Below, in pieces: positions 2,182 through 37,775 of a DNA stretch of 64,000 nucleotides. The notes under the pieces were generated by a model. The model searched no databases. It was not told the origin of the DNA and saw only the letters and a program-made list of their open reading frames with translations. The position numbers and the translations under genes are program-made. The stretch comes from Aquimarina sp. BL5. GTDB taxonomy: Bacteria; Bacteroidota; Bacteroidia; Flavobacteriales; Flavobacteriaceae. The DNA lies in the NCBI RefSeq assembly GCF_003443675.1, contig NZ_CP031963.1, forward strand, positions 1,263,501 to 1,327,500, given 5' to 3'. Within the stretch, counting starts at the first letter, position 1. The number at the start of each line of letters is the position of its first letter.

Positions 2182-3315
2182 ATGAAACATATAAGTAAAA
2201 ATATCACTCTAAAGCACTTAATGATCGATCAACAAAAAATGATTGGTTTGCAGTTCTATCCTGATAAAGTTATTCAGGCTTTAATCAAAGAATTACCCAA
2301 TCCTAGATGGAGTCATCGTTTCAAAATGCCTTATATTATTAATAATCAAAAAAACATAGATTTAATTTTTGAGAAGTTTAGAGGTGTGGCTTGGCTCAAT
2401 TGTAATTATTTTTATAGCGATAAGGTTATTAACCATTCTAACCCAATTGCTAATCTTCAATCACTTAAGAATAGAAGGTTAGCAAACACCTACAGAGTTT
2501 GTCCTGAAGAATATTTGCAAAAACTATTATTAAAGCGTTATTCTCAAAATACGGTAAGATCTTATGTGAATGCTTTTGAAGCTTTTATAAATTATTATAC
2601 AGATATTGAACTTTTAAGCATTGGTGAGCTAGAAATAAGAAGGTATCTTAGAAAATTAATAAGTGAAAAAAAATCAAATTCTTATGTCAATCTAGCCATT
2701 AATAGTATAAAGTTTTATTACGAGATTGTTCTTAACATGCCAAACAGGTTTTATGCCATAGAACGACCTAGAAAACAGCAAAAACTTCCTATTGTATTAT
2801 GCAAAGAGGAAATCTTATCCATCATCAATAATACAAATAACCTAAAACACAAATGTATTGTTAGTCTATTATATTCTGCTGGATTACGAAGAGCTGAGTT
2901 ACTCAATTTAAAAATATCAGATATCGATAGCAAGCGAATGGTAATCAGGGTTGTCCACGCAAAAGGTAACAAAGACAGGTATACATTATTATCTACCAAT
3001 GTATTAAAAGATTTAAGGAATTATTTCAAGCAATACCAACCTAAACATTTTTTATTTGAAGGGCCAAAAGGAAATCCATACAGTGCAAGCAGTGTAAAAG
3101 CAATCATAGAAAAAGCAGCCAAAAAATCTAAAATTACAAAGAGAATTACCCCTCATACGCTAAGGCACAGTTTTGCTACACATTTACTAGAGAACGGAAC
3201 CGATCTTCGTTATATACAATCATTATTGGGTCATAGCTCTAGTAAAACAACTGAAATTTACACCCACGTTGCTACAAATACTTTTAGAATGATTAAAAAT
3301 CCCCTAGATTTGTAA
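2182..3315 (+). CDS. tyrosine recombinase, proposed integron integrase
   Basis: This is a site-specific recombinase of the XerC/D-IntI superfamily. With the ATG at 2182 (a TTG lies 9 bases upstream) the protein has 377 residues. Catalytic residues in order are R236 (AGLRRAELL), K261 (HAKGNKDR), H325 and R328 (HTLRH), H351 (LLGH) and nucleophile Y360 (EIYTHV). A core-binding SAM-like domain covers about residues 105-190. Before it lies an extra domain of about 90 residues with the WSHRFKMPYI patch seen in Bacteroidota recombinases. Between KDR and HTLRH there are only 58 residues, the Xer spacing, so the insertion expected in IntI proteins is absent. The stop codon is 41 bases from the first cassette junction, and gene and cassettes point the same way. 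A plain Xer-type phage or element integrase is the alternative, but the array right after it favours an integron role. Confidence 0.85.
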   Translation: MKHISKNITLKHLMIDQQKMIGLQFYPDKVIQALIKELPNPRWSHRFKMPYIINNQKNIDLIFEKFRGVAWLNCNYFYSDKVINHSNPIANLQSLKNRRLANTYRVCPEEYLQKLLLKRYSQNTVRSYVNAFEAFINYYTDIELLSIGELEIRRYLRKLISEKKSNSYVNLAINSIKFYYEIVLNMPNRFYAIERPRKQQKLPIVLCKEEILSIINNTNNLKHKCIVSLLYSAGLRRAELLNLKISDIDSKRMVIRVVHAKGNKDRYTLLSTNVLKDLRNYFKQYQPKHFLFEGPKGNPYSASSVKAIIEKAAKKSKITKRITPHTLRHSFATHLLENGTDLRYIQSLLGHSSSKTTEIYTHVATNTFRMIKNPLDL

Positions 3316-3332
3316 GTGATAAAAGATATATA

Positions 3333-3362
3333 ACAGCAATAGCAGTTATACTATTGTTGTGC
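3333..3362 (+). other. candidate attI site
   Basis: The first cassette junction is G3356^TTGTGC. The arm ACAGCAATAG (3333-3342) is the reverse complement of CTATTGTTGT (3351-3360) with one mismatch and an 8-base spacer, the arrangement expected for two recombinase-binding arms. It lies 17 bases past the integrase stop codon. No attC-like second hairpin is present, as expected for attI. Confidence 0.6.
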
Positions 3363-3367
3363 ACAAT

Positions 3368-3955
3368 ATGAAAAAAACTCTAGCTTCCATATTAATTATT
3401 TGCATTACCGCAATATCCTTTTCACAAAATCTAATGGAAAAGGGACTCGAAGATATGACCAAGTTGATTTATCAAAAGCCATACAAATTCAAAGTTGATA
3501 ATGATAAATGGGCCAATAGAAATCGTTTGGGTTCATTAAAAGAACAAAAAATAATTCTAGACAACCCAAACATTCTGACCGATTCGTTGACAATTGTAGA
3601 ATTGTTTGAAAATGCAAAAATACAGGATTTGAAGAACTGGAATAAGGACGAACTAAAGAATGTCTATTTAATATCAAATAATCAAAACTTAAGTTTTCGA
3701 AAAGTCCAACGTGAACTCGAATTGTCGGAAAAAGAACAAATTAAAAAATTAAAAAAACAGATTCGTCAATTCAATAATAACAAAAGCAAATGGAGAAGTT
3801 TTCCTATCTCAATTTCTCGACCAATTTATACAAATGATAAAAAGTATGCGTTGATTGCCTATAATCTTGGAAATAACGGAGGGAAAATTGTAATCTATAA
3901 ACTGGATGGAGAAAACTGGATTTTTGCGGGAGAACCCAAAAGGTGGGCATACTGA
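3368..3955 (+). CDS. exported hypothetical protein, cassette 1
   Basis: 195 residues from the ATG at 3368. An upstream GTG in frame lies inside the recombination box and is less likely. A signal peptide covers the first 20 residues (ends ISFSQ). The middle is lysine-rich and probably helical (residues 105-140). The last 45 residues form a beta pattern ending NWIFAGEPKRWAY. I do not know the family. It is the first cassette after attI, hence the position normally best expressed and most recently acquired. Confidence 0.8.
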   Translation: MKKTLASILIICITAISFSQNLMEKGLEDMTKLIYQKPYKFKVDNDKWANRNRLGSLKEQKIILDNPNILTDSLTIVELFENAKIQDLKNWNKDELKNVYLISNNQNLSFRKVQRELELSEKEQIKKLKKQIRQFNNNKSKWRSFPISISRPIYTNDKKYALIAYNLGNNGGKIVIYKLDGENWIFAGEPKRWAY

Positions 3956-3966
3956 AAAAATACTGT

Positions 3967-4166
3967 GCACAACACAGGCTATAACAAATAGGGCATAAAG
4001 TGCTATAGTTAAAGGCTTAAGCGTGTTTGCGAAGTCCTCCAAATCTTTTGGATTTGGCAATTAAAAAAGAAAAAATAATTACAAAACAAAAAGCTCTGGC
4101 TCGTAGACTAGACGGAAACGAAAAGTTTCCTTGCCTGCCCTACTTGCCATAGCCCAACCGTTAGGT
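3967..4166 (+). other. attC site of cassette 1
   Basis: First box GCACAAC (3967-3973) is complementary to the cassette start GTTGTGC (3356-3362). Inner boxes GGCTAT and ATAGCC pair. Final box GTTAGGT is at 4160-4166. At about 200 nt it is long for an attC. Confidence 0.8.
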
Positions 4167-4672
4167 GCAATTGTCCCATTTTGATCTGACAATTTTTTCG
4201 AAGGGATACGCTGGTATTACGGAGTTTTATTCTGATATGCAGTACGGACAAATACTTTGCTAAAAGGAATTGCCCAAGTATTTTGCGATGGTATCGTGGA
4301 GAGTTACACTATCCAAACGCTGTCACGTTATAAATACTTGATCAAGGTCGCGAAAATTTTTTACAAAGTCAAATTTGAAGCGGAATTGCGGAATGTTTAT
4401 CAGAATGGAAAACGGAGTATTAAGTTCCCTGCACCAACAGATTATAGACTGATCTATAAATCCATAGGTTTGGGTAGCTCCGAAAAAGTTGGGAGTTTTT
4501 TTGCCTGCCAAAATAGAACAACTGAGATTTTATTTTTTAATTTTACGATAAATTAATCAAAAAAGAAAAGCACATAACATTATGTAAGAATGCATTGATC
4601 AAATACTTTGTCTTCGCTAACGCTGCGCAAACGATTTAATCAACGACGCTATCGCTCTTCTTACACTTATTG
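4161..4672 (+). repeat. 512-bp cassette, copy 1 of 3 (cassette 2)
   Basis: A complete cassette that recurs at 9732-10243 and 12953-13464 with the same length and near-identical sequence. It holds one 99-codon frame and a typical attC. Its beginning contains a short dyad (TTGTC ... GACAA, 4169-4193). Confidence 0.9.
4257..4556 (+). CDS. possible 99-aa protein of the triplicated cassette, copy 1
   Basis: The frame fills the usual place of a cassette gene, ending 13 bases before the first attC box. It must start at TTG (4257) because a stop lies 8 codons upstream and no ATG is available. The product is basic and aromatic, with no family I recognise. A 62-codon frame on the other strand is less convincing. 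Coding is uncertain. Confidence 0.45.
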   Translation: MLKGIAQVFCDGIVESYTIQTLSRYKYLIKVAKIFYKVKFEAELRNVYQNGKRSIKFPAPTDYRLIYKSIGLGSSEKVGSFFACQNRTTEILFFNFTIN

Positions 4673-4678
4673 TTATAT
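4570..4678 (+). other. attC site of cassette 2
   Basis: GCACATAAC (4570-4578) against cassette start GTTAGGTGC (one mismatch). The inner pair ATGTAAGAA / TTCTTACA is strong. The final box GTTATAT is at 4672-4678. Length about 109 nt. Confidence 0.85.
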
Positions 4679-5081
4679 GCCAGCATCTGAGGTCTGAAAA
4701 GTAAAACGCAAGCAGAAATTAAACGGACGGGCTACGGACTAGAGGGCTGAGTTTGTTTTTGAAAGTCCGTTCTGATACAAAGTCTAGTACAAATCAGCGA
4801 CTGACGGAAGGTCTGAGCATTTTTATGATGGCAAGTACATAATCCAAAGTCACAAAGCGATCGCAGAGAATTAAAAAATATAACGCAAATAGTAGCTAAG
4901 CAATCATCGCTTTGCTTGGGTAAGTTTGCAAAGTATAGGCTTGTAAAAAAGCCGGCATATAACAAAATGTATAATTCATAGCGGCGGAAATTCCTAACGG
5001 AATTTCACGCGCGTTTGCTATCTTTGGGTGGCTGCGGAGGGTGAGTTTTGTGCCCGCCCGCTATAAACCATACATCAAACG
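4673..5081 (+). other. gene-less cassette 3
   Basis: No plus-strand frame of useful length. A 77-codon minus frame (4732-4965) overlaps its counterpart in cassette 4 but has no family likeness and no credible start. The cassette is about 85-90% identical to cassette 4, and its 3' half shares blocks with cassette 20: CGATCGCAGAGA, then AGGCTTGTAAAA about 78 bases later, just before attC. A structured RNA or a degraded gene are both possible. Confidence 0.55.
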
Positions 5082-5087
5082 TTATAT
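4954..5087 (+). other. attC site of cassette 3
   Basis: GGCATATAAC (4954-4963) is the exact complement of the cassette start GTTATATGCC. Inner pair ATGTATAATTCATAGCGG / CCGCTATAAACCATACAT. Final box GTTATAT at 5081-5087. Confidence 0.85.
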
Positions 5088-5488
5088 GCCAGCATCTGAG
5101 GACTGAAAAGCAAAACGCAAGCAAAAATTAAACGGACAGGCCACGGACGAGAGGGCTGGGTTTGTTTTTGAAAGTCCGCTCTGATACAAAGTCTCTTACA
5201 AATCAGCGACTGACGGAAGGTCTGAGTATTTTTATGATGGCAAGTACATAATCCAAAGTCGCAAAGCGATCGCAGAGAATTAAAAAATATAACGCAAATA
5301 GTAGTTAAGCAATCATCGCTTTGCTTGGGTAATTTTGCAAAGTGTAGGGTCAAAAAAGCCGGCACATAACAAAATGTATAATTCATAGCGGCGGAAATTC
5401 CTAACGGAATTTCACGCGCGTTTGCTATCTTTGGGTGGCGGTGGAGGGTAAGTTTTGTGCCCGCCCGCTACAAACCATACATCAATCG
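5082..5488 (+). other. gene-less cassette 4, tandem near-copy of cassette 3
   Basis: Begins with the same bases as cassette 3 and follows it directly. The two differ by scattered substitutions and small gaps, including one in the 3' part (GTATAGGCTTG against GTAGGGTC). No plus-strand gene. The minus frame 5075-5386 crosses the cassette boundary, which argues against it being a gene. Confidence 0.55.
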
Positions 5489-5494
5489 TTATGT
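5361..5494 (+). other. attC site of cassette 4
   Basis: GGCACATAAC (5361-5370), one mismatch to the cassette start. Same inner stem family as cassette 3. Final box GTTATGT at 5488-5494. Confidence 0.85.
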
Positions 5495-5506
5495 TCAATC
5501 AAAAAA

Positions 5507-6088
5507 ATGACTAGAGCTGAAATAAGACAATCTGAAAAACTGAAAAAATTCCAGCTGAATGAAGCTATAAAAAGAAATTTAGCTCTTAAAGTTGGATTGA
5601 ACGAACTTTATGCTGGCGGACATACAATTCGTAATGAAAAAGGTTGGCGTGACAACGAAATTTCAATAGATTATATTTGGATCGCAAAAATGAGTTTGTC
5701 ATTTGTTGGTTGGGGTGGTTTAATAACAATTAAGTATAACAAAACTGAATTCAGAGGAATTAATAATCCTGAGAAACTTACTCAAGGTCTTTTTCTCTAT
5801 AACGCTAATGGAGAAATTACAGAATTATATGTTGAAGACAAAATCAATGATACTGATGATCCTATCTGGAAAATAAATAAGCTTGAAATGTTTGACGCCA
5901 ACAAAGGAATTACATTGGATGGAGTTTCTTACGAGTATAATGTAATTGCAAAAAATATTGAAACTCAAATTTTGGCAAATAATCCAAATAGTACTGGATG
6001 GAAAAACTGGGAAAAAGAGATTTGGAATTTAGGGCATAGTTTAGCTCAGAACTCTGGAAACAAAGAAATGGCAGAGTTATTTAAATGA
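5507..6088 (+). CDS. hypothetical protein, first gene of cassette 5
   Basis: 193 residues from ATG 5507. The frame is open upstream into the previous attC, but 5507 is the first ATG inside the cassette and follows an A-rich stretch. It is soluble, with a helical N-terminus and then a beta-rich body (YIWIAKMSLSFVGWGG). The family is not recognised. It overlaps the next gene by four bases (ATGA), so the two are translationally coupled and probably act together. Confidence 0.8.
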   Translation: MTRAEIRQSEKLKKFQLNEAIKRNLALKVGLNELYAGGHTIRNEKGWRDNEISIDYIWIAKMSLSFVGWGGLITIKYNKTEFRGINNPEKLTQGLFLYNANGEITELYVEDKINDTDDPIWKINKLEMFDANKGITLDGVSYEYNVIAKNIETQILANNPNSTGWKNWEKEIWNLGHSLAQNSGNKEMAELFK

Positions 6089-6546
6089 AAAAGAACAACA
6101 GGATATATATCGAATTTGGAATTCCAGAACATGGATGGCTATTTATGAATTTTCAATGGCAGGATTTCAGTTTAGAAATAGATCTTTCTAATGTTCCAAC
6201 CGATCCAATTGAACAATTATGTGATACGTTACTTCAATTAAGTAGCGGAATAACAAACCCTTCGAAAGTAATCTGGCATTTGGAACCTCATTGTTATTAT
6301 TTTGAGATAAAAAAACTTGAGAAAAGTTACAACATTATAATTTCAGAATCTGACGAATTCGAAAGTAAACCAGTAAAACTGGTCAAAGAATTCGAAGGGA
6401 ATTATGATCAAATAATTTTACCATTGTACCGAGCAATCAAAAAATTTAATTCATATTCATATAAAAAACCTCATTGGGATGAAATGGATTCAAAAAGAAT
6501 ATTAAAGTTGACCGAACAAATAAAAAAAGAACATAACACTATATAA
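6085..6546 (+). CDS. immunity-like hypothetical protein, second gene of cassette 5
   Basis: 153 residues, soluble. The run from residue 9 to 75 (PEHGWLF ... WHLEPHCYYFE) resembles small immunity-type proteins of polymorphic toxin systems in general style, but I cannot assign a family. It is coupled to the gene before it by ATGA overlap. The last residues, EHNTI, are encoded by the attC site itself, and the cassette-9 protein ends with the same five residues from the same site type. Confidence 0.8.
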   Translation: MKKNNRIYIEFGIPEHGWLFMNFQWQDFSLEIDLSNVPTDPIEQLCDTLLQLSSGITNPSKVIWHLEPHCYYFEIKKLEKSYNIIISESDEFESKPVKLVKEFEGNYDQIILPLYRAIKKFNSYSYKKPHWDEMDSKRILKLTEQIKKEHNTI

Positions 6547-6599
6547 CAAAACATAGTTGTCCTTCGGAACAACAACGTTTGTTATATTTACCGTTGTAT
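6530..6599 (+). other. attC site of cassette 5 (short family)
   Basis: GAACATAAC (6530-6538) exactly complements cassette start GTTATGTTC. Inner stem ATATAACAAA / TTTGTTATAT, then a second stem GTTGT / ACAAC around CCTTCGGA. Final box GTTGTAT at 6593-6599. Only about 70 nt. Same family at 12302, 22431 and 26964. Confidence 0.9.
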
Positions 6600-6701
6600 G
6601 CCATTAAAAACGCAACGGTTCAATTTTCAATAATCTTCAGTTAATAACTTCTGGAGAAACTCTATTAAATTTATTGCTTTCATAAAATCAATCATATAAA
6701 T

Positions 6702-6718
6702 TTGACACTTATTGTCAA
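6702..6718. promoter_or_regulatory. putative operator of the XRE regulator
   Basis: TTGACA (6702-6707) and TGTCAA (6713-6718) form a perfect inverted repeat with a 5-base spacer, 14 bases before the ATG at 6733. The position fits self-repression by the HTH protein, as controller proteins of restriction-modification systems do. The left arm also resembles a -35 element, though Bacteroidota promoters differ. Confidence 0.5.
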
Positions 6719-6732
6719 GTAATAATTTTCAA

Positions 6733-7041
6733 ATGGAAACAATCGGAGAAATTTTACGCAATCAAAGACAAGCGCTTGGACTTCTTTTAAGACAAGTTTC
6801 TGCCTATGTTGATATCGACCAAGCTATATTGAGTAAAATCGAAAGAAACGAACGAAAACCGACAAAAGAAATGTTGGATAAACTTGCTGAAATACTAACA
6901 CTCGATAAAGATGAGTTATTAGTCCAATTTATGAGTGACAAAATTGCCTATGAAATAGCAGGTGAAGATTGTGCAAACAAAGTTCTAAAAGTAGCCGAAA
7001 AAAAAGTTAAATATTTGAAATCACATCCAATTAAAAACTAA
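6733..7041 (+). CDS. XRE-family HTH regulator of the R-M cassette
   Basis: 102 residues from ATG 6733. The TTG at 6712 lies inside the operator-like repeat, so I reject it. Residues 1-60 form a Cro/C1-type helix-turn-helix (IGEILRNQR ... VDIDQAILSKIERNERKPT), and the rest is a basic helix. It stands first in a four-gene operon with a methyltransferase nine bases on. This is the usual place for a controller that delays nuclease expression until the DNA is methylated. That role is inferred from context. Confidence 0.85.
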   Translation: METIGEILRNQRQALGLLLRQVSAYVDIDQAILSKIERNERKPTKEMLDKLAEILTLDKDELLVQFMSDKIAYEIAGEDCANKVLKVAEKKVKYLKSHPIKN

Positions 7042-7050
7042 TCAGATAGA

Positions 7051-8139
7051 ATGAGTACAGATATAGAAAATGTAAACATTGTCAAGGAACCACAGTTAAG
7101 GATATATTCACCACCAATTGAAAAATTAAAAGAGCAATCGAAAGAAAAAATTGATGTCATTTCACTTTTTTCAGGTTGTGGCGGAATGGATTTAGGTTTT
7201 GACAAAGCTGGTTTCAATATAAAATGGGCAAATGATATTGAACAAAGAGCTTGCGAAACTTATGCTAAAAACATTGGAGACCATATTGTTTGTGGAGATA
7301 TTACTCAATTAGATTATTCTAAAATACCAGATGCAGATTTGATTCTTGGCGGTTTCCCTTGTCAAGATTTTTCTATGATTTGGAAAAGAGGCGGAATAAC
7401 AACAGACAGAGGTAATTTATATCAAAATTTTGTTGAAATAGTTTCTCAAAAGCAACCTTTAATGTTTGTTGCAGAAAATGTAAAAGGAATTTTAACTGCG
7501 AATAAGAAAAAAGCCATAAAGACAATAATTAAAGACTTTTCAGAAACAGGAGATCACGGTTATAATACAACTGCATATTTAGTGAATTTCGCAGAGTATG
7601 GAGTAGCTCAACTTCGTCAAAGAGTTTTGATTATTGGAGTAAGAAAAGATTTAGATACATTTTTTGACATTCCTGCACCAACAAATGACGCTGACAATTA
7701 TTTATCTGCCAAAGAAGCCTTAAAAGGGGTGAAAAAAGTAAAACATAACAATGAGCATCAAAACATACAGGCTGGTACTATTGAAAAACTAAAGTTAATT
7801 CCACCAGGAGGCAATTTTACTGACATACCAAAAGACTCACCACATTATGTAAAAGGAATGATTTCTCACGTTTATCGCAGGCTTCATCCTAACAAACCAT
7901 CAACGACCATTATTGCAGCCGGTGGTGGCGGAACTTGGGGATATCATTATGATGAACCAAGGCCATTAACAAACAGAGAAAGAGCAAGGTTATTTGGTTA
8001 TCCAGACGATTTTGTATTTGAGGGTACTATTACAGAAGTGAGAAAACAAATTGGAAATTCTGTTCCACCTTCAGGTATTTATCCTTTTGCAAAACAGATT
8101 AAAACATTTTTAGAAAACATCAAGGTTAATGCACACTAA
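7051..8139 (+). CDS. DNA (cytosine-5) methyltransferase of the R-M cassette
   Basis: 362 residues. It transfers methyl groups from S-adenosylmethionine to carbon 5 of cytosine in the recognition site, protecting host DNA. Motif I is ISLFSGCGGMDLGF (residues 38-50). The catalytic Cys is C104 in GGFPCQDFS, motif VI is AENVKG, motif VIII is QLRQRV, and motif X is RKQIGNSVPP near the C-terminus. The target-recognition region lies between VIII and X. All motifs are present in the canonical order. It overlaps the nuclease gene by 11 bases. Length is normal for a type II enzyme. Confidence 0.95.
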   Translation: MSTDIENVNIVKEPQLRIYSPPIEKLKEQSKEKIDVISLFSGCGGMDLGFDKAGFNIKWANDIEQRACETYAKNIGDHIVCGDITQLDYSKIPDADLILGGFPCQDFSMIWKRGGITTDRGNLYQNFVEIVSQKQPLMFVAENVKGILTANKKKAIKTIIKDFSETGDHGYNTTAYLVNFAEYGVAQLRQRVLIIGVRKDLDTFFDIPAPTNDADNYLSAKEALKGVKKVKHNNEHQNIQAGTIEKLKLIPPGGNFTDIPKDSPHYVKGMISHVYRRLHPNKPSTTIIAAGGGGTWGYHYDEPRPLTNRERARLFGYPDDFVFEGTITEVRKQIGNSVPPSGIYPFAKQIKTFLENIKVNAH

Positions 8140-9145
8140 TATTCAAAAATATGGAGGCGATTTTCGGAATGTTTTAGATAAAGAATTTAAGACGTCAAAT
8201 AATATTACTGTTGCATCAGGCTACGCTTCACTTGACGTAATTAATGCTTTTGAAAAACCGTTTATTGAAATTGCCAAAAAAGGTGGTACATCGAGACTGC
8301 TATTAGGTATGGCATTTTATGAGGGTTTAGGTCAAAAAAAGCTAATCGCAGTAACAAAATTGAATGATGCTTTAAAAGCTTACGATAACAATTCAGGTGT
8401 ATTCGTAACTAATGGCAGAAGATACCACGGTAAAGTATATCAATTCGATAAAGATGTTACGTCAAATATTTATGTTGGTTCATCAAATTTTTCTGCAAGT
8501 GGTACTAAAGGAAATATAGAATGTACAGTCCCAATTTTAGATGACAATCAAAAAGTAAATCTAATTGCATTTTTGAATGACCTTTACTCACCTTCCTACT
8601 CTATCTCAATAGACCAAGCTGATATAACAGTTCCTGGTAAAAAGAAAATTGTTCTTGATAAAGTAGAGAGGCTTTGGACCAGTCTAAAAACTTATGATTC
8701 TTCATCAATTTCTTTAGAAAAACTACCAAAATTTATTTTCCCATTAGACAGAGTTGCTGAAAAGGAAAAATCAAACCTGAATGTTTATTTTGGAAAAGGA
8801 AGAGAAAACAAAAAAACTGGGAAAATTAAACCAAGACCTTGGTATGAAATAGAACTTATTGCAAATAATGATTTGAATTCTCAAACCTTTTATCCTAAAG
8901 GCGATTTTCTTGCTTATACCGATGATGGTTTAATAATTCCTATGAGAACTCAAGGAGATTATTTTAAAAATATCCGTTCAAAAGATAGTTTACAGGTTTT
9001 TGGAATATGGCTAAAGGGAAAATTAGAAAAAAGCGGAGTTTTAAAAAAATATGAACCTGTGACATTGGAAACTTTAGAGGAATATGGAAGTGACAAGTTG
9101 ACTTTTTACAAATTTGAAGAGGGGAAATATTATATGGCTTTCTGA
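8129..9145 (+). CDS. PLD-type restriction endonuclease (NgoFVII-like)
   Basis: 338 residues. The N-terminal half has a phospholipase-D-type active site, HGKVYQF (HxK) followed by YVGSSNFSASG, which cleaves without metal in the BfiI/NgoFVII class. The C-terminal half (from about FPLDR, residues 205-330) looks like the B3-type DNA-recognition domain of that class, with PRPWYEIELI. Only one HxK motif is present, so a dimer is expected to share one site. Its place right after a C5 methyltransferase supports the restriction role. The recognition sequence is unknown. Confidence 0.85.
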   Translation: MHTNIQKYGGDFRNVLDKEFKTSNNITVASGYASLDVINAFEKPFIEIAKKGGTSRLLLGMAFYEGLGQKKLIAVTKLNDALKAYDNNSGVFVTNGRRYHGKVYQFDKDVTSNIYVGSSNFSASGTKGNIECTVPILDDNQKVNLIAFLNDLYSPSYSISIDQADITVPGKKKIVLDKVERLWTSLKTYDSSSISLEKLPKFIFPLDRVAEKEKSNLNVYFGKGRENKKTGKIKPRPWYEIELIANNDLNSQTFYPKGDFLAYTDDGLIIPMRTQGDYFKNIRSKDSLQVFGIWLKGKLEKSGVLKKYEPVTLETLEEYGSDKLTFYKFEEGKYYMAF

Positions 9146-9687: not shown

Positions 9688-9737
9688 TGCATATGCACCC
9701 TGCGGGATGCAAACGCACCATACAATGGACGTTAGGT
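9667..9737 (+). other. attC site of cassette 6
   Basis: GGCATACAAC (9667-9676) exactly complements cassette start GTTGTATGCC at 6593, 3.1 kb away. Inner pair TTGTAT / ATACAA. Short hairpin with CACCCTGCGGGATG. Final box GTTAGGT at 9731-9737. Confidence 0.9.
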
Positions 9738-10243: not shown

Positions 10244-10249
10244 TTACCA
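10141..10249 (+). other. attC site of cassette 7
   Basis: GCACATAAC (10141-10149), inner pair ATGTAAGAA / TTCTTACA, final box GTTACCA at 10243-10249. Confidence 0.85.
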
Positions 10250-10276
10250 GCAAGCAAAACAAAACGTAATTTCTAA

Positions 10277-29776: not shown

Positions 29777-29780
29777 AACT

Positions 29781-30233: not shown

Positions 30234-31613
30234 ATGGAAAGAAAAATGAAACTAGGAATGGATGTGGTGAATTTCAATGCAGCAGGAATTGATATTGGAA
30301 GTCGTTCTCATTATGCTGCTATTGGTCAAGAGTTAGAAGATGTAAAAGAGTTTGGCGTATATGCTGAGGATTTGACTTCATTATGTGAGTGGTTTGTGAG
30401 CAACGATGTAACTACTGTAGCTATGGAATCTACAGGAGATTATTGGCAGAATCTATATACGGAACTTATTAGTTTTGGTTTTGAGGTAGTACTAGTCAAT
30501 GGGAAATTCACTAAAAATGCCAAAGGAAAAAAGACCGATGTGAAAGATTGTAGATGGATACAAAAACTACATACTCTTGGGCTACTTACGGGAAGTTTTC
30601 TACCAGATCTTGTTACTGAACATTTACGAACATATTGCCGACAAAGAACAAATTGGATTGAACTTGCTTCATCTGCAACACATAAAATGCAGAAATATCT
30701 AAAACTACTGAACTTCAGATTGGATGTAGTAGTCAAAGATGTTTGCGGACTTACTGGAATGAAAATCATTGAAGATATCTGTAAAGGTAATCTTGATCCA
30801 TATAACCTAGCAGAACATCGGCATTTTAACTGTAGAAAACCTAAAGAAGAAATTGCAAAAGCGCTACACGGTAATAATAGAGAAGACTTCCTTTTTGGAT
30901 TGCAACAAGAGCTCAAAAGTTATCAATTCTTCCAAAGAAACATAAAAGCTTGTGACAAAAAGATTGAGCAGTTTATAAAACAAGAACTCAAACAATATCC
31001 CGAAAGAAAAAAACTCAAAACAACAGAAAAAACTTATAAAAGAATCAATAAAAATGCTCCTAAAATTAAAAATATGAATCAAATTGCTTTTAGATATTTT
31101 GATGGTGTTGACCTTTTTGCAATTGAAGGATTGAGTCATTCATCCATTCTTAGCATTATGAGCGAAATTGGACCTGAAGGTTTTAAAAAATTCCCTACTG
31201 CTAAACATTTTACCTCTTGGCTAAGGTTGGCTCCCAACAACAAAATATCTGGAGGAAAAATACTAAGTAATAGAGTGCCCAAAGGAAGTAACAGACTCAA
31301 AATAGCACTCAGGCAAGCAGCAAATGCTATTGGAAACTTAAAAGATACTCATCTTTCTGATTTTTTCAGAAGAGTAGCCTACAGGAAGGGAAGGCACTCA
31401 GCGGTAAGCGCAACAGCTAGAAAGTTGGCAGTAATAATATGGAATATGATAACTAAGAAAATACAATACCAACCGCCTAAACTATATTTATTCCTCGATC
31501 AAAAAAGAAAACTAGGGCTTGTCAAAAGAATTAAAAAACAAATCGATAAATTTGACTTAAAACCCGAAGATTTAGGGTTTAACAACAGCATAATAATCAA
31601 TAAACAAAATTGA
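30234..31613 (+). CDS. IS110-family transposase (DEDD)
   Basis: 459 residues. The RuvC-like DEDD domain shows GIDIGSRSH (Asp), VAMESTGDYW (Glu) and KKTDVKDCRWI (two Asp). The C-terminal Tnp part has FAIEGLSHSSILSIMSEIG and LRLAPNNKISGGKIL with the conserved Ser region. The length is normal and no break is seen, so it may be active. The stop codon is 24 bases before the ATG of the cassette gene downstream. Confidence 0.93.
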   Translation: MERKMKLGMDVVNFNAAGIDIGSRSHYAAIGQELEDVKEFGVYAEDLTSLCEWFVSNDVTTVAMESTGDYWQNLYTELISFGFEVVLVNGKFTKNAKGKKTDVKDCRWIQKLHTLGLLTGSFLPDLVTEHLRTYCRQRTNWIELASSATHKMQKYLKLLNFRLDVVVKDVCGLTGMKIIEDICKGNLDPYNLAEHRHFNCRKPKEEIAKALHGNNREDFLFGLQQELKSYQFFQRNIKACDKKIEQFIKQELKQYPERKKLKTTEKTYKRINKNAPKIKNMNQIAFRYFDGVDLFAIEGLSHSSILSIMSEIGPEGFKKFPTAKHFTSWLRLAPNNKISGGKILSNRVPKGSNRLKIALRQAANAIGNLKDTHLSDFFRRVAYRKGRHSAVSATARKLAVIIWNMITKKIQYQPPKLYLFLDQKRKLGLVKRIKKQIDKFDLKPEDLGFNNSIIINKQN

Positions 31614-31639
31614 CGTTAGTCAGAATTAAAACAAAAATT

Positions 31640-33217
31640 ATGAAAAAGTATTTATATTTTTTTTCTATTTTGATTTCAATAACTTCCTGGTCACAGGACT
31701 TTGAAAAAATAACCATTCCCAATTTTTCTAACTACGTTGTTCCACATTTTATCGATTTGGATGGAATTTTATACTGCACTGCGAAACTATATGATTCTAA
31801 TAATGGGTGGCAGAACTATATTGCCCAATATGATATAGAGCAAGGTTCAATAGAAATAGTGGATTATGATTTTTTCCGAACCCCAGAACTAAATCCTCTC
31901 TGGTATGATAGTCGATGGCAGAGCTTTACAACATTCTTTGAATATGGCAATTATATTTATTTTAGATTTGAATCTGAATTGTATAGAAAACAAAAAGGCA
32001 CTAGCAATATAGAAACCTACTTAACGAATTTTGATTATTCAGGTCAAGTAGGGCAATATATTATTTATAGTGGTGCTACTAGTGATTTTAGTATTTTTAA
32101 GATACACGATTTAGAAACTAATCAGCAGATTGGTGAGTTTACTGCTAGAAATGCAGATGAATTTTATATCCACAATAATAGTATTTATTTTTTTGCAGAA
32201 TATAATACTTCACCTAATGCAGACAATAAGTATAATTACATTTATAAATATGATTTAGCTACTAATTCATTAAGCACACTCTACTCTAGTATACAAGGAC
32301 CAGAACACGCTATAGCTTTAGATCAGTATACTCGAATGGAAAAAGTAGGAGATAATCTAGTTTATAATGTTAGAGATAATTACAATAACATAATTTGTAT
32401 CTCTATTAGCTTAAATAATGATTCTCTAAATTCTAATTTCACTTTTAATTATGGAAATCCAGAAACCCTTTATCTTTATTATGAAGATATGTTTGTTATT
32501 GATGGAGAGGTGTTTTTTAACAATGAGGAGAGCTTTTATAAGTCTGATGGTATCCAACAACCATCACCTATAAATTTAGATTTTGACAGTAAGTCTTTTA
32601 CTTCCCTAAGAGGAGAAAGTAATTATTTAGATTATAATGGAAAAGTTTTTGGCAGTTATAACTCAGATGATTTTGGTAGAGAGATGTATTATACAGATGG
32701 TCGGTCAAGTTATTTACTAAAAGATATAATTTCAGGAGAAGGTAGCGGATATTTTGGAAGTGAACGTGTCTATAATAATAATTTATTTTTTTATGAATTT
32801 AGTACTGATTCTTATTATGTATCTGACGGAACAACAGAAGGTACTGAAAAATTATTTACAATGGAATCAGAAAACTTTGGATATGTCCAACATTATGCTA
32901 ACAAAATTTTCTTTTTTGCAGAATCAGATACTAATAACGGTCTATATGTTTTCGAACAAGTTAGTTTGAGTACACCTGATTTTGATTTAAGTCTTAATTC
33001 CGTAACGCTCTGGTTAGATTCTACAAATAGTATTTTAAATTATCAAAGCAAACAGAAACCAACAAAAATTAAAGTTTTTGATACTCTGGGTAGAGAAATT
33101 AATGTTGGAGTAGATTTTAATAATAATACTATTAATATTAACCGTTTAGTAGGAATGCATATAATAATCTTCGAATTTGAACAAGGTAAAGTTTCGAAAA
33201 AAATTATATTAAAATAA
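31640..33217 (+). CDS. exported beta-propeller-like protein with T9SS sorting domain, cassette 26
   Basis: 525 residues from ATG 31640. The frame is open back to 31610 but that part belongs to the IS110 end. Signal peptide ends in SWSQ. The middle has units such as GREMYYTDGRSSYLLKDI and YYVSDGTTEGTEKLF, the ELWxxDGT-type repeats of Bacteroidota surface propellers. The last 75 residues (KIKVFDTLGREI ... GMHIIIFEFEQGKVSKKIILK) form a type A type-IX-secretion sorting domain. The product is therefore probably exported through T9SS. It is the largest single cassette protein here. The IS110 element now separates it from its own cassette start and perhaps its promoter. Confidence 0.85.
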   Translation: MKKYLYFFSILISITSWSQDFEKITIPNFSNYVVPHFIDLDGILYCTAKLYDSNNGWQNYIAQYDIEQGSIEIVDYDFFRTPELNPLWYDSRWQSFTTFFEYGNYIYFRFESELYRKQKGTSNIETYLTNFDYSGQVGQYIIYSGATSDFSIFKIHDLETNQQIGEFTARNADEFYIHNNSIYFFAEYNTSPNADNKYNYIYKYDLATNSLSTLYSSIQGPEHAIALDQYTRMEKVGDNLVYNVRDNYNNIICISISLNNDSLNSNFTFNYGNPETLYLYYEDMFVIDGEVFFNNEESFYKSDGIQQPSPINLDFDSKSFTSLRGESNYLDYNGKVFGSYNSDDFGREMYYTDGRSSYLLKDIISGEGSGYFGSERVYNNNLFFYEFSTDSYYVSDGTTEGTEKLFTMESENFGYVQHYANKIFFFAESDTNNGLYVFEQVSLSTPDFDLSLNSVTLWLDSTNSILNYQSKQKPTKIKVFDTLGREINVGVDFNNNTININRLVGMHIIIFEFEQGKVSKKIILK

Positions 33218-33218
33218 C

Positions 33219-33230
33219 TAGCTACAACAA
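33219..33230 (+). other. attC site of cassette 26, left part
   Basis: TAGCTACAAC (33219-33228) exactly complements cassette start GTTGTAGCTA at 29947, across the IS110 insertion. Cut by IS copy 3. The matching right part appears to be the sequence after IS copy 4 (37776 on) and is decayed. Confidence 0.75.
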
Positions 33231-34920
33231 GGGTAACCGTTGCACAAGTACTTAACTTTTGATGGGGTTGACATTAAAAATACTATTTTAAACCTCTTTT
33301 ATTTTGAAAATGCTTGTTGAAATTTCAAAAATTTGAGTGCTTAAAATGAAGGCTAGTGTTTGTATTAAGACCAATTTTTCAAAAAAAAGAGGAGCAAGTG
33401 CTTTTGCTTCACTTTTTACTCGTTTTTCTGTGAATTTTAGATATTTCTTTAAATTATAAGCCATTGCCGATAGATGCATCACTTTGTTAGCCTGCTTTAT
33501 GCCAATAGTGTTGATCTTGCGCAGTCCCATAAACTGGGTGAGGGTTCCAAAAACAGGCTCTACAGTACTTTGCCGTTTGGCTTTCATTACTTTGCCTTTG
33601 GGAGTGGCTAGTCGAGCATTGTTACGCTCATATTCCTCCCGATAGTAGGTTACACTAAATTTCTTTTCTTTAGCTGTTTTTCCCAAACAGCTAAGTGATA
33701 GTGGACAGTCTCTACATATTTTACTGGAAATACGGTATTCTTTCTTTAAGGTTTGGGTACGGTAGTCTTTGAACACTTTCTTGAAAGGTACTATTGCTCT
33801 GTTGGGACAGATATAATGATCTTCACTTTTTATATATTCAAAGCCATCTGGACCACCTTTGTAAGTGCCATGTGGTGGTATGTAACCTTTGATCTCTTTA
33901 TTTTCTAAATAAGCGTACACCTCTCCGCTACTATATCCTGTATCTGCCAGTACGTTTTCTAATTGAAATCCTGACTTCCACAACCGCCGTTGAACACGAT
34001 CTACAATGTCCTCCATATATTGACTATCCTTACCATCTGCATGATAAGCTTTGATGTCAGTAATCACATGATTTGCCGTGTCTACACTAAGTTGGCTGCT
34101 ATAATTGAGTTTTCGAGCCTTGCCTGGCTTCACACTTATTCTAGCATCTGGATCGGTTGGACTGTAGTGTGTCTTGTTGCTTGTATAACGGCTACCCTTG
34201 TTATTTGCACCTGGGCGCCTGTCTTGATTCTTGCTCCAGTTCTTGTTCCTGGACTCAATACTTTTTAGTTCTTGTTTTGTGGCAGTAATACTTTGCTGCT
34301 CTTCACTGGCTTTGTTTTCCTTGGCTTTGCGAAAAACCTCTTGATCCCGATGGCTAATATGGCGTACAGCAGCTAAGTGTGCTTCTAAATCTTGACAAGG
34401 AACTTTTAACTCCAGACTATCCATACTGGCATTTGCTTTTACAGGTGCAGAATCTATCGCTTGGGTGCGCCCTTTTACCATACCCTTGCCGATGCACATC
34501 TCCAAAATGTGGATGAATACTTGTTCAAAAATTTCTTCAGGGAACAACTGGCGTGTCCTACTGATAGTCGAATGCCAAGGTAGTGTCTCATCAATGTCAT
34601 AGCCCACAAAATAGAGGATATCCAAGCGCATACTACAGTGCTCGATAAGCTTTCTATCGCTTATAATATTTTCTAGATAACCAACTAAACAAAGCTTGAA
34701 AAACACTACAGGATCAATACTACGTTGACCACTTCTACCGTAATAGGTACTGGTTTTTTTATATAAAAAGTCTAAATGCAAAACACTCTTTAAACGATAA
34801 TAAAAATTGGTCTCCGCTACACGATCACTTAAACGGAAATCACTAAACAACTTCTCTTGATATATCTTTTTTCCTTGCATATCATGAAATTAATCCTTTT
34901 TACTAACTTGTGCAACAGGC
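33231..34920 (-). mobile_element. IS1182-type insertion sequence, copy 3
   Basis: 1690 bp, same ends as copy 1. ACAA at 33227-33230 and 34921-34924. The next base differs: G on the left, T on the right. Confidence 0.85.
33288..34880 (-). CDS. IS1182-family transposase, copy 3
   Basis: 530 residues, identical in translation to copies 1 and 2, intact. Confidence 0.95.
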   Translation of the reverse strand: MQGKKIYQEKLFSDFRLSDRVAETNFYYRLKSVLHLDFLYKKTSTYYGRSGQRSIDPVVFFKLCLVGYLENIISDRKLIEHCSMRLDILYFVGYDIDETLPWHSTISRTRQLFPEEIFEQVFIHILEMCIGKGMVKGRTQAIDSAPVKANASMDSLELKVPCQDLEAHLAAVRHISHRDQEVFRKAKENKASEEQQSITATKQELKSIESRNKNWSKNQDRRPGANNKGSRYTSNKTHYSPTDPDARISVKPGKARKLNYSSQLSVDTANHVITDIKAYHADGKDSQYMEDIVDRVQRRLWKSGFQLENVLADTGYSSGEVYAYLENKEIKGYIPPHGTYKGGPDGFEYIKSEDHYICPNRAIVPFKKVFKDYRTQTLKKEYRISSKICRDCPLSLSCLGKTAKEKKFSVTYYREEYERNNARLATPKGKVMKAKRQSTVEPVFGTLTQFMGLRKINTIGIKQANKVMHLSAMAYNLKKYLKFTEKRVKSEAKALAPLFFEKLVLIQTLAFILSTQIFEISTSIFKIKEV

Positions 34921-35080
34921 ACAATGGTCATAGTTAATATGGGTTTTTGGTACCTAACTGAAAATGTCGAGATTTATACGAAGTCTACCAAATCTTTTTG
35001 ATTTAGCTAAGTGCTTAATATATAATTAATTAATTTTAATTCCTATACTAACCATAGCCAAGGAGCTATGTATAATTAAA
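34921..35080 (+). other. displaced right part of attC 27
   Basis: Inner boxes GGTCATAGTTAATATGGG (34926 on) and CCTATACTAACCATAGCC (35041-35058) pair over 18 bases. The final box is degenerate (GAGCTATG near 35065, where GTTGTGC is expected). It lies before its gene instead of after it. Confidence 0.6.
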
Positions 35081-35091
35081 AACAGACGATA

Positions 35092-36072
35092 ATGAAAACA
35101 CCTTTTAAGGTATTATTTTTACTCTTCTTGATTTTTTTTAGTACGAAATCTTTTTCTCAGAAAATGGATGAATATTACGAATCGGTAAAAAATGATAGCC
35201 TGAGAGTTGGAATAGGAGAAAATGACTTTTTACCTTTCATTCAAAAAGGGTATACTCTAATGCTTCCTGAAAATAAGGAAATAAAAGGTGTGCTCATTTT
35301 CCTCGAAGATTCGAAGTATGACAAAAAGAACAACAGCTCAAAGCAGATGTATACTCAAGCATCGGAAAAAGACTTTGCAGTATTATCAGTTTCAACCGAA
35401 ATTCCTCTTGACTTTTACTTTTCTAAATCATCCATGATTTCTACACATAAGCTAATTAAAGAAGTATTTTATAAATTTAATTTACCAAATAATAATATTT
35501 TCTTTTTAGGAGCAAGTTTAGTTGGACATAGAGCGATGCGCTATATCAAATTTATGAAAGAGAACGACTTAAAATTTCAACTTAAAATTAAAGGTATCGT
35601 AGCTTGCAATTTCACGATGGACTTTATAAGAAAATGGTATCAACATAAACGTGACATAAGAATTAACCGAATTGACCTTTGGGAACCAAAATTCATAAAC
35701 TATCTATTGGAAACGAACTTGGGAGGAACACCAATAACCAATCCAGAAAATTATCACAACTTTTCATCGTATAGTTACTCTAATGAAAAGAATGAAAATG
35801 TAAAGCTATACAAAGACTATGGAGTTCGGGCGTATATAGAACCTGCTATAGAATATAAACTAAAAAAACAATTAAGAACCTTATACGAGAATAATTCGAC
35901 AGACATAGTAGGCTTTCTAGCTGAATTGAGAATAAAAGGAAATAAAAACACCGAATTGATTGTATTACAACCTGGGGACAATCCATCACAAGAAAGGAAT
36001 ACTCAATCAACTTGGAACTCGATAAATAAAGATGAACTTATGGATTGGATTCAAAAGCAGACAGAAAAATAG
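35092..36072 (+). CDS. exported alpha/beta-hydrolase-like protein, cassette 27
   Basis: 326 residues. Signal peptide ends in TKSFSQ. The middle has FFLGASLVGHRAMRYIKF, a nucleophile-elbow-like GxSxxG (Ser in GASLVG) following a strand, as in alpha/beta hydrolases of the esterase/peptidase kind. Earlier strands read GVLIFLEDSKYD and FAVLSVSTE. A catalytic Asp and His are not obvious, so activity is uncertain. It lies alone between two direct IS copies, with its attC halves on the wrong sides. Confidence 0.75.
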   Translation: MKTPFKVLFLLFLIFFSTKSFSQKMDEYYESVKNDSLRVGIGENDFLPFIQKGYTLMLPENKEIKGVLIFLEDSKYDKKNNSSKQMYTQASEKDFAVLSVSTEIPLDFYFSKSSMISTHKLIKEVFYKFNLPNNNIFFLGASLVGHRAMRYIKFMKENDLKFQLKIKGIVACNFTMDFIRKWYQHKRDIRINRIDLWEPKFINYLLETNLGGTPITNPENYHNFSSYSYSNEKNENVKLYKDYGVRAYIEPAIEYKLKKQLRTLYENNSTDIVGFLAELRIKGNKNTELIVLQPGDNPSQERNTQSTWNSINKDELMDWIQKQTEK

Positions 36073-36085
36073 CTACGCACAACAA
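36071..36085 (+). other. left part of attC 27
   Basis: ACGCACAAC (36075-36083) is the first box. Cut two bases later by IS copy 4. Confidence 0.65.
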
Positions 36086-37775
36086 TGGTAACCGTTGCAC
36101 AAGTACTTAACTTTTGATGGGGTTGACATTAAAAATACTATTTTAAACCTCTTTTATTTTGAAAATGCTTGTTGAAATTTCAAAAATTTGAGTGCTTAAA
36201 ATGAAGGCTAGTGTTTGTATTAAGACCAATTTTTCAAAAAAAAGAGGAGCAAGTGCTTTTGCTTCACTTTTTACTCGTTTTTCTGTGAATTTTAGATATT
36301 TCTTTAAATTATAAGCCATTGCCGATAGATGCATCACTTTGTTAGCCTGCTTTATGCCAATAGTGTTGATCTTGCGCAGTCCCATAAACTGGGTGAGGGT
36401 TCCAAAAACAGGCTCTACAGTACTTTGCCGTTTGGCTTTCATTACTTTGCCTTTGGGAGTGGCTAGTCGAGCATTGTTACGCTCATATTCCTCCCGATAG
36501 TAGGTTACACTAAATTTCTTTTCTTTAGCTGTTTTTCCCAAACAGCTAAGTGATAGTGGACAGTCTCTACATATTTTACTGGAAATACGGTATTCTTTCT
36601 TTAAGGTTTGGGTACGGTAGTCTTTGAACACTTTCTTGAAAGGTACTATTGCTCTGTTGGGACAGATATAATGATCTTCACTTTGTATATACTCAAAGTC
36701 ATCTGGACCTCCTTTGTAGGTACCATGGGGAGGTATATAACCTTTGATTCCTTTACTTTCTAAATAAGCATACACCTCTCCGCTACTATAGCCAGTATCT
36801 GCCAGTACATTTTCTAATTGAAACCCTGACTTCCACAACCGCCGTTGAACACGATCTACAATGTCCTTCATATATTGATTATCCTTACCATCTGCATGAT
36901 AAGCTTTAATATCGGTAATCACATGAGTTGCTGTATCTACACTAAGTTGGCTGCTATAATTGAGTTTTCGAGCCTTGCCGGGCTTCACACTTATTCTGGC
37001 ATCTGGATCGGTTGGACTATAGTGGGTCTTGTTACTTGTATAACGGCTACCCTTGTTATTTGACCCTGGGCGCCTGTCTTGATCCTTGCTCCAGTTCTTG
37101 TTTCTAGCTACAATACTGTTAAGTTGGTTTTTGTTGGCTGTGATCGTTTTCTGTTCTCTATTGGATTTATCTACTTTAGCTTTTCGAAAAACTTCTTTAT
37201 CTCTATGGCTTATATGGCGTACAGCAGCTAAATGAGCTTCTAATTCTTGAGAAGGAACTTTTAACTCCAGACTATCCATACTGGCATTTGCTTTTACAGG
37301 TGCAGAATCTATCGCTTGGGTGCTCCCTTTTACCATACCCTTGCCGATGCACATCTCCAAAATGTGGATGAATACTTGTTCAAAAATTTCTTCAGGGAAC
37401 AACTGGCGTGTCCTACTGATAGTCGAATGCCAAGGTAGTGTCTCATCAATGTCATAGCCCACAAAATAGAGGATATCCAAGCGCATACTACAGTGCTCGA
37501 TAAGCTTTCTATCGCTTATAATATTTTCTAGATAACCAACTAAACAAAGCTTGAAAAACACTACAGGATCAATACTACGTTGACCACTTCTACCGTAATA
37601 GGTACTGGTTTTTTTATATAAAAAGTCTAAATGCAAAACACTCTTTAAACGATAATAAAAATTGGTCTCCGCTACACGATCACTTAAACGGAAATCACTA
37701 AACAACTTCTCTTGATATATCTTTTTTCCTTGCATATCATGAAATTAATCCTTTTTACTAACTTGTGCAACAGGC
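36086..37775 (-). mobile_element. IS1182-type insertion sequence, copy 4 (mosaic)
   Basis: 1690 bp with the same ends. ACAA at 36082-36085 and 37776-37779. An internal block, 36685-37324, differs from copies 1-3 at many positions, while the rest is identical by eye. Confidence 0.85.
36143..37735 (-). CDS. IS1182-family transposase, copy 4 (mosaic)
   Basis: 530 residues, intact. It differs from the other copies only between about residues 137 and 350, for example SQELEAHL for CQDLEAHL and VDKSNREQKTITANKNQ for ENKASEEQQSITATKQE. The N-terminal domain and the last 180 residues are identical. Catalytic regions are kept. Confidence 0.93.
   Translation of the reverse strand: MQGKKIYQEKLFSDFRLSDRVAETNFYYRLKSVLHLDFLYKKTSTYYGRSGQRSIDPVVFFKLCLVGYLENIISDRKLIEHCSMRLDILYFVGYDIDETLPWHSTISRTRQLFPEEIFEQVFIHILEMCIGKGMVKGSTQAIDSAPVKANASMDSLELKVPSQELEAHLAAVRHISHRDKEVFRKAKVDKSNREQKTITANKNQLNSIVARNKNWSKDQDRRPGSNNKGSRYTSNKTHYSPTDPDARISVKPGKARKLNYSSQLSVDTATHVITDIKAYHADGKDNQYMKDIVDRVQRRLWKSGFQLENVLADTGYSSGEVYAYLESKGIKGYIPPHGTYKGGPDDFEYIQSEDHYICPNRAIVPFKKVFKDYRTQTLKKEYRISSKICRDCPLSLSCLGKTAKEKKFSVTYYREEYERNNARLATPKGKVMKAKRQSTVEPVFGTLTQFMGLRKINTIGIKQANKVMHLSAMAYNLKKYLKFTEKRVKSEAKALAPLFFEKLVLIQTLAFILSTQIFEISTSIFKIKEV

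Follow-up and report, generated by a model that had tools for sequence, protein, structure and literature searches.

A chromosomal cassette array in Aquimarina sp. BL5 headed by a Xer-like tyrosine recombinase that lacks the IntI insertion

Introduction

The integrons described so far, those of classes 1 to 5 and the chromosomal ones, are built on IntI, a tyrosine recombinase with the residues R-K-H-R-H-Y, and consist of one-way cassettes whose attC sites carry a circle signature, with an attI site beside the integrase gene and a G^TT junction. The insertion that sets IntI apart has been used to define integrases in searches (PMC9668308), and in PMC8138268 the insertion is called essential for function, yet not fully conserved in its subgroup. 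Here we describe a 64,000-nucleotide stretch of Aquimarina sp. BL5 (contig NZ_CP031963.1, positions 1,263,501 to 1,327,500; hereafter the window), in which the same features recur in an array of 27 cassettes behind a 377-amino acid (aa) recombinase. This locus is an integron variant and not an IntI integron, the defining insertion being absent. We read it as a working or once-working integron whose integrase is that recombinase and whose lineage is sister to, or the stem of, the IntI integrons, and we put the probability of this reading at about 0.87.

The locus differs from IntI integrons in several respects. Its lineage has 58 to 61 residues between the KDR motif and the HxxRH box, as against 100 in IntI; in the window and its close relatives the integrase gene is co-directional with the cassettes and attI lies at its 3' end; and the lineage has a palindromic attI, often an N-terminal extension of the enzyme and, in the close relatives, a Zn-ribbon companion gene. 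With XerC/XerD, and with archaeal XerA and its dif site, the system shares the catalytic spacing, a score above the cut-off of NF040815 and two-arm palindromes at attI, whereas the window enzyme stands apart from XerC/D in trees, is linked to attC sites, and is encoded in a genome that has its own XerC/D-like pair. The integrons of Spirochaetota resemble it in orientation, the typical IntIs of that phylum being reverse-oriented according to PMC9668308, but they are IntIs as that paper defines them, with the IntI-specific domain.

Integrons in Bacteroidota are already on record (PMC8618304, PMC9668308, PMC2426708), and the IntegronFinder 2.0 paper gives Salinibacter ruber M1 as the sole bearer of a complete integron in Bacteroidetes beyond Chlorobi and Ignavibacteriae (PMC9024848), whereas we find the present attC type in 141 of 149 genomes of the window's family. 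We found no description of the present lineage in the open literature, which is the scope of that search, as distinct from subscription papers and preprints. Existing annotation hints at an integron role, some relatives being named "site-specific tyrosine recombinase/integron integrase" in databases and one "integron integrase intI2". Riemerella anatipestifer belongs to the same order as the host of the window. A gene followed by a 140-bp 3' tail that the authors liken to attC is reported to have inserted without homology in that species, with its mechanism left unexplained and no recombinase identified (PMC13148043).

Results

A one-way array of 27 cassettes with the circle signature

The genome is complete, in one contig of 6.01 Mb. 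As the earlier note on this DNA, made from the letters alone, had proposed, about 27 cassettes in one orientation follow a tyrosine recombinase gene: we found 27 on the + strand, from 3356 to about 37830, behind the gene at 2182-3315. That note let the array end at 37775. The array is real, while the end point corresponds to the right end of the last insertion sequence (IS), at 37771, inside an interrupted attC.

The array was traced by a strict chain search, which requires the R'' box to match the start of its own cassette as the reverse complement and L'' to pair with L'. The array scored 112 over 25 links; ten first-order Markov controls reached 13 at most, and the window part 45000-63900 reached 5. 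Three of the 25 links (from 14215, 18131 and 27029) are wrong, each passing through an IS, and were set aside; the 22 others, with the cassette at 19036-19633, give 23 cassettes with an uninterrupted attC. The signature score of these is 8-10 in 20 and 7 in three, which are copies of one repeated cassette. Among the cassettes whose attC is split by an IS, 13 and 26 score 10, and for cassette 24 inspection by eye gave an exact match of 9 bp (27506-27514). The circle signature is thus present in 26 of the 27 cassettes, three readable IS-split sites included, where at least 18 had been claimed from the letters; cassette 27 has no clear start. A loose chain search was dropped, its links numbering 53-62 in six Markov controls and 49 in the window (scores 159-187 versus 255).

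The strict test is symmetric, an early version scoring equally on both strands, and the orientation rests on open reading frames (ORFs) and on the asymmetry of the sites. Of the 27 cassettes, 21 contain an ATG ORF of 90 aa or more on the + strand, and in 25 the + strand holds the longest ATG ORF (19 aa in cassettes 2 and 11); for IS-split cassettes the scan covered the stretch to the left of the IS or that between two ISs. Cassette 2 recurs in near-identical form as cassettes 7 and 11, and 3 and 4 form a tandem pair (4672-5487) with no + strand ATG ORF longer than 6 aa; these two may be ORF-less or carry non-protein cargo.

We also built an attC model, R1, from 35 sites, 33 of them downstream of the recombinase in 70 related loci and two from the window. 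R1 finds 20 window sites at an E-value (E) of 2.2e-6 or better, all on the + strand and within the array; two of these had served for training, and another two are the right halves of sites split by an IS. A scan of the window against Rfam gave no match at gathering score. The features are as follows.

2182 to 3315, + strand: candidate integron integrase without the insertion, a Xer-like tyrosine recombinase of 377 aa (PF00589, NF040815)
2182 to 2475, + strand: N-terminal extension of the integrase, about residues 1-98
3356 to 37830, + strand: cassette array, 27 cassettes, right end approximate (chain search, ORFs)
3967 to 4166, + strand: attC of cassette 1 (3356-4159); signature, R1
4572 to 4678, + strand: attC of cassette 2 (4160-4671); signature
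4957 to 5087, + strand: attC of cassette 3 (4672-5080); signature, R1 (training site)
5364 to 5494, + strand: attC of cassette 4 (5081-5487); signature, R1
6531 to 6599, + strand: attC of cassette 5 (5488-6592); signature
9670 to 9737, + strand: attC of cassette 6 (6593-9730, likely type II restriction-modification cargo); signature
10143 to 10249, + strand: attC of cassette 7 (9731-10242, copy of cassette 2); signature
11263 to 11455, + strand: attC of cassette 8 (10243-11448); signature, R1
12302 to 12370, + strand: attC of cassette 9 (11449-12363); signature, R1
12787 to 12958, + strand: attC of cassette 10 (12364-12951); signature, R1
13364 to 13470, + strand: attC of cassette 11 (12952-13463, copy of cassette 2); signature
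14051 to 14221, + strand: attC of cassette 12 (13464-14214); signature, R1
17153 to 19042, + strand: attC of cassette 13 (14215-19035), IS-interrupted; signature 10 at 17148-17159, R1 right half 18848-19042
19508 to 19640, + strand: attC of cassette 14 (19036-19633); signature, R1 (training site)
20334 to 20505, + strand: attC of cassette 15 (19634-20498); signature, R1
21218 to 21389, + strand: attC of cassette 16 (20499-21382); signature, R1
22433 to 22501, + strand: attC of cassette 17 (21383-22494); signature, R1
23111 to 23281, + strand: attC of cassette 18 (22495-23274); signature, R1
23891 to 24061, + strand: attC of cassette 19 (23275-24054); signature, R1
24414 to 24584, + strand: attC of cassette 20 (24055-24577); signature, R1
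25153 to 25323, + strand: attC of cassette 21 (24578-25316); signature, R1
25960 to 26155, + strand: attC of cassette 22 (25317-26148); signature, R1
26967 to 27035, + strand: attC of cassette 23 (26149-27028); signature, R1
27508 to 29399, + strand: attC of cassette 24 (27029-29392), IS-interrupted; R'' 27506-27514 by eye, R1 right half 29203-29399
29783 to 29953, + strand: attC of cassette 25 (29393-29946); signature, R1
33222 to 35071, + strand: attC of cassette 26 (from 29947), IS-interrupted, right end degenerate; signature 10 at 33217-33228, R1 34917-35071 at E 0.11
36077 to 37830, + strand: attC of cassette 27, IS-interrupted; no R' box found

The attC sites are predicted to fold as DNA hairpins

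The 23 uninterrupted attCs of the window are 68-200 nt long, and 107 of 169 strict sites in relatives measure 130-139 nt. A structure-blind MAFFT alignment of the 35 sites showed compensatory changes in 13 of 18 stem pairs. When 89 sites were aligned to the model, 93.9% of cells paired, with changes on both sides in 307, in an alignment fitted to the structure; structures slid along the same alignment paired at 20-36%. In this alignment two G-U cells lie in helix 2, most of the other 17 fall in the outer R-box pair, and that pair is open in 25 sites. The scarcity of G-U pairs suggests that the hairpin or palindrome is one of DNA and not of RNA. The bottom strands of ten sites, nine from the window and one from a relative (L038), fold better than their shuffles (z -2.3 to -5.3), and the lowest-energy predicted fold contains the L''/L' stem in eight of the ten, the sites at 9670 and 19508 being those that miss it. 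The sites are predicted to form a single-stranded hairpin with unpaired features.

The integrase has catalytic residues of its class and lacks the IntI insertion

The recombinase matches PF00589 at 148.7 bits. Its best-scoring family model is NF040815 (XerA-type; 226.4 bits, above the cut-off of 220), which is described as "site-specific tyrosine recombinase/integron integrase"; it reaches 202.9 bits with TIGR02249, below the cut-off of 265, and falls below the cut-offs of TIGR02224 and TIGR02225. Six residues that we take to be catalytic (R236, K261, H325, R328, H351 and Y360) are invariant across 52 aligned rows. The earlier note had counted 58 residues between KDR and HTLRH and had seen that the IntI stretch is absent, and both observations held on measurement: the spacing is 58 in the window enzyme and 58-61 in 41 of 41 insertion-less rows, as against 100 in 34 of 34 IntI rows, the difference being the 42-residue insertion before HxxR. 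An AlphaFold model (predicted local distance difference test, pLDDT, 82.9) has IntI4 (2a3v) as its best Foldseek match. The enzyme is 97% identical to that of one related locus, L012.

The additional N-terminal domain of about 90 residues, likewise noticed earlier, corresponds approximately to residues 1-98. In many relatives this domain may bear a weak resemblance to branched-DNA-binding domains (UvsW/XPB/HARP-type fold), and sequence searches of PDB and Pfam with it gave no credible match. The extension is dispensable for heading an array, as 305-aa relatives at the head of arrays are without it (L120-L122).

The recombinase is linked to attC arrays in relatives

We assembled 70 loci from GTDB that encode relatives of the window integrase. 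At E of 1e-3 or better, 254 of 263 R1 matches in them lay downstream on the recombinase strand (325 kb), and the nine others fell in the 611 kb of upstream sequence and opposite strands (six upstream in L036, one each in L038, L022 and L077). A scan of relatives for the recombinase beside attC arrays had been proposed as a check, and 44 of the 47 testable loci, those with at least 1.5 kb downstream, were positive (exceptions L073, L077 and L080); among loci with less than 1.5 kb downstream, attC was found in 4 of 23. The model-free chain score rose above 8 on the downstream side of 32 of the 70 loci, as against a single locus on the upstream side. As controls, 30 canonical-IntI loci with short flanks yielded a single R1 match, at E 0.05, and three IntI-type loci of 14-15 kb (L163, L165, L166) had none at E of 0.1 or better.

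Further loci (L112-L131 and L157-L186) were picked by hand from search matches, several of them for nearby attC matches. In 19 of the same family, 119 of 120 matches lay downstream on the integrase strand, L129 having one upstream on the other strand, and L130 held an array of 13 matches without an integrase. The 20 from other families include nine with the co-directional layout (L175-L181, L183, L184) and nine with the divergent layout of classical integrons (L167-L174, L186), whose insertion-less integrases measure about 280 aa.

On plasmid pHH1107, tet(X3) directly follows a relative of the integrase (L154, 3037-3702) that is annotated as a shorter protein and is 57% identical over residues 149-377. 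We do not call tet(X3) a cassette; neither attI nor attC was found beside tet(X3) and the truncated relative.

A putative attI and traces of recombination

3316 to 3358, + strand: putative attI, an imperfect palindrome at about 3329-3350 (by eye) followed by G^TT at 3356-3358

The palindrome reads TATAACAGC-AATA-GCAGTTATA, and perfect 9-bp arms stand at the same place in L012-L014. A palindrome scan gave scores of at least 8 in 51 of 67 stretches, a count that has no chance control and includes the window, where the best match is an inverted repeat different from the one named here. A cassette chain was found in 48 of the 70 loci, and in 38 of them it begins at a GTT 42-89 nt past the recombinase match. 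Five Aquimarina-type loci, those of the window, L012, L013, L014 and L018, are 88-100% identical over the 60 nt up to this GTT and 20-50% over the next 60 nt; identity that is lost at the GTT implies that different first cassettes were joined at the same point. Cassette 9 recurs as the second cassette of L017, 87% identical over its length. Both observations are traces of past recombination and do not prove ongoing activity. The motif TANNTTTG, which we take to be a promoter motif and sought in the attI region as a cassette promoter, follows the stop codon in 21 of 63 loci as against 100 of 1260 random windows and is absent from the window.

The lineage is spread across the phylum sample

With thresholds of E 1e-6 for the attC type and 1e-50 for the recombinase, per-genome attC counts being lower bounds, attC was found in 141 and the recombinase in 110 of 149 genomes of the window's family, taken from L012 to be Flavobacteriaceae. 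All 110 recombinase-positive genomes had attC and all eight attC-negative ones were without recombinase (Fisher P = 1.2e-5, the genomes here and below not being independent). In a sample of 148 genomes of the phylum, 74 had attC, 51 the recombinase and 44 both, so that attC accompanied 44 of 51 recombinase-positive genomes versus 30 of 97 others (P = 1.1e-10; P = 5e-8 outside the family). At least 7999 proteins match the integrase at E of 1e-20 or better. The lineage is thus spread across the phylum sample, well beyond this genome. XerD-type genes were present in 11 of 13 phylum genomes tested.

Phylogeny and the origin of the system

The phylogeny with IntI, XerC and XerD that the earlier note asked for did not place the recombinase with XerC/D, which form a separate clade without it in two trees (100/97 and 99/96); in a quick tree with far outgroups the support for that clade was 26 by the Shimodaira-Hasegawa-like approximate likelihood ratio test (SH-aLRT). 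In three trees IntI and the insertion-less rows group apart from XerC/D and XerA (SH-aLRT 97; 100/99; 100/92), a grouping that assumes Xer as outgroup, the three groups meeting at one node; two published trees are also rooted on Xer, as presented in PMC2426708 and PMC9668308. All four trees recover IntI as a clade, in an unstable position: nested among the insertion-less rows in the 100/99 tree and their sister (87/73) in the 100/92 tree, while in the quick tree the insertion-less rows make up one side of a branch at 68. L073, which has an internal stop, was left out of the trees; both the 100/99 and 100/92 trees were built without L142, L164, L141, L121, L165 and L166, the latter also without L012, L035, L173 and L181, and their IntI rows were thinned from 34 to 15 and 13, respectively.

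These trees bear on the best surviving alternative, that Xer gave rise to this system separately from IntI, the attC-like plan being convergent. NF040815, an XerA-type model, is the best-scoring family model, and the spacing, orientation, palindromic attI and companion gene are all unlike integrons of the class 1 type. Because the trees join the insertion-less enzymes with IntI against XerC/D, if Xer is the outgroup, shared ancestry fits better, and under convergence the shared R/L-box plan and the G^TT junction would have originated twice; we regard an independent origin as unlikely. Of the earlier description of an "independent or strongly altered" lineage, the second half fits and the first is not supported, in view of the trees (with the Xer outgroup), the common attC plan and junction, and a phage that has sites of this type and also an attC recombined by IntI1, one that we could not match to our sites.

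Other readings of the array

Several observations weigh against assigning these arrays to the insertion-less enzyme. With the R1 training sites removed, training matches not being independent, 221 of 230 matches in the 70 loci remain downstream; L036 has its six attCs upstream of the recombinase; and three of the picked loci (L124, L182, L185) have no attC match. The attC type occurs without the recombinase in 31 of 141 family and 30 of 74 phylum genomes, and attC matches are missing from seven of the 51 phylum genomes that have the recombinase. Canonical IntI is present in genomes of other classes of the phylum, and the two XerC/D-like proteins of this genome could act on the sites.

The last point leads to a second alternative, in which the recombinase is a bystander or has another job, such as dimer resolution at the palindrome, and XerC/XerD move the cassettes in trans. 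Palindromes after the stop codon do resemble Xer-type two-arm sites (as counted above, with no chance control), and the two candidate proteins are there. This is nevertheless improbable, for the recombinase adjoins the array in 44 of 47 loci and co-occurs with attC, and XerC/D form their separate clade (100/97 and 99/96, with only 26 in the quick far-outgroup tree).

Less probable again, to the point of being barely tenable, is that a canonical IntI acts in trans on what is left of an IntI integron. IntI scored above its cut-off in 85 of 296 phylum genomes, and some (G001, G005 and others) have both such an IntI and an insertion-less enzyme; IntI1 recombines the site P12002L_attC2, not attC1, of a phage with this attC type, according to PMC9892861, although that site could not be matched to the coordinate of an R1 site. 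On the other side, no IntI above the model cut-off is encoded in the one-contig genome, such an IntI being what the earlier note had named as an outcome that would refute its own reading, and among the matches listed G037 alone belongs to the window's class, as against attC in 141 of 149 family genomes.

That the repeats are transposon-like or regulatory palindromes, as similar sites elsewhere in the genome (14 of 26 matches listed lie outside the window) might suggest, is very unlikely, because the signature in 26 of 27 cassettes ties each site to its own cassette's start, for which a plain repeat has no reason.

Companion gene, insertion sequences, cargo and phage

1672 to 2049, - strand: companion gene, 125 aa, Cys4 Zn-ribbon-like N-terminus, divergent from the integrase, with homologues in relatives
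17170 to 18847, unstranded: 1678-bp IS within attC, DDE transposase on the - strand
27525 to 29202, unstranded: 1678-bp IS within attC
33239 to 34916, unstranded: 1678-bp IS within attC
36094 to 37771, unstranded: 1678-bp IS within attC
30234 to 31613, + strand: IS110-family transposase within cassette 26 (PF01548, PF02371)

The companion protein begins with a CxxC...CxxxC pattern, has 356 relatives at E of 1e-5 or better and matches no Pfam or NCBIfam family above cut-off. Of 68 related loci with upstream room, 58 have a homologue in divergent orientation some 76-154 bp away from the recombinase match, and one also lies beside L120-L122, L126, L131 and L156; among the remaining divergent loci covered by the scan, as far as L166, none had a homologue at E of 1e-3 or better. 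We know of no such companion in classical integrons. From its conserved position, the gene probably has an accessory or regulatory role in the system.

All seven copies found in the genome of the 1678-bp IS, which encodes a DUF772/DDE transposase, sit at the same attC-like place just after the R'' box; the three outside the window are at G000:C1 near 4715k, 4694k and 176k, and one copy has AAT for AAC at the insertion place. Insertion sequences that target attC are known, namely the IS1111-attC group, which is likewise fixed at one place in attC; here the transposase is of the DUF772/DDE and not the IS110/IS1111 type, and to our knowledge an attC-specific IS of the former type has not been described.

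Likely defence cargo comprises an NgoFVII-like type II restriction-modification system (6593-9730), a PDC-S42 candidate (10243-11448) and a GmrSD/HEPN/cytosine-methylase set (14215-17169). Of the 26 attC-model matches listed (150 candidates scored), 14 lie outside the window, single or loosely grouped, at G000:C1 near 170-182k, 1405k, 1646k, 4484-4486k, 4626k, 4682-4732k and 4993-4996k, and look as if cassettes had inserted elsewhere in the genome. The lytic Polaribacter phage P12002L (L197) has ten sites of this attC type at E of 0.004 or better (30906-39713 on the + strand and 14499-14628 on the - strand), nine of them in a region of methyltransferase genes, and cassettes may move between phage and host.

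Discussion

As far as sequence tells, the array works like an integron, with the window enzyme as the likely recombinase and the folded single strand as its likely substrate. A cassette, as a circle or as the folded bottom strand of its attC, would be joined to attI just behind the stop codon of the integrase gene through strand exchange by the window enzyme at G^TT; new cassettes would enter at attI and could be excised between attCs. The N-terminal domain or other surfaces of the protein would then replace the IntI insertion in recognising attC.

From this integron reading we suggest, tentatively and at slightly under even odds, that integrons predate the IntI insertion. The insertion-less integrases would be the stem or sister of IntI, still at the head of arrays in most genera of the family and in other classes of Bacteroidota, and would read attC hairpins in another way, many with an N-terminal branched-DNA-binding domain and the close relatives with a Zn-ribbon partner.

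If these enzymes recombine attC without the insertion, the way in which attC is recognised is not yet fully explained, and many integrons have escaped the surveys in which the insertion is a requirement. These would be sister enzymes for asking how IntI evolved from Xer, and they offer an explanation, open to test, of how genes are captured without homology in this order. The locus would be a gene-capture array akin to those that gather antibiotic-resistance genes in hospital bacteria, run by a recombinase without a part thought essential; and if the insertion-less enzymes are indeed stem or sister to IntI, they represent a largely unrecognised reservoir of cassettes.

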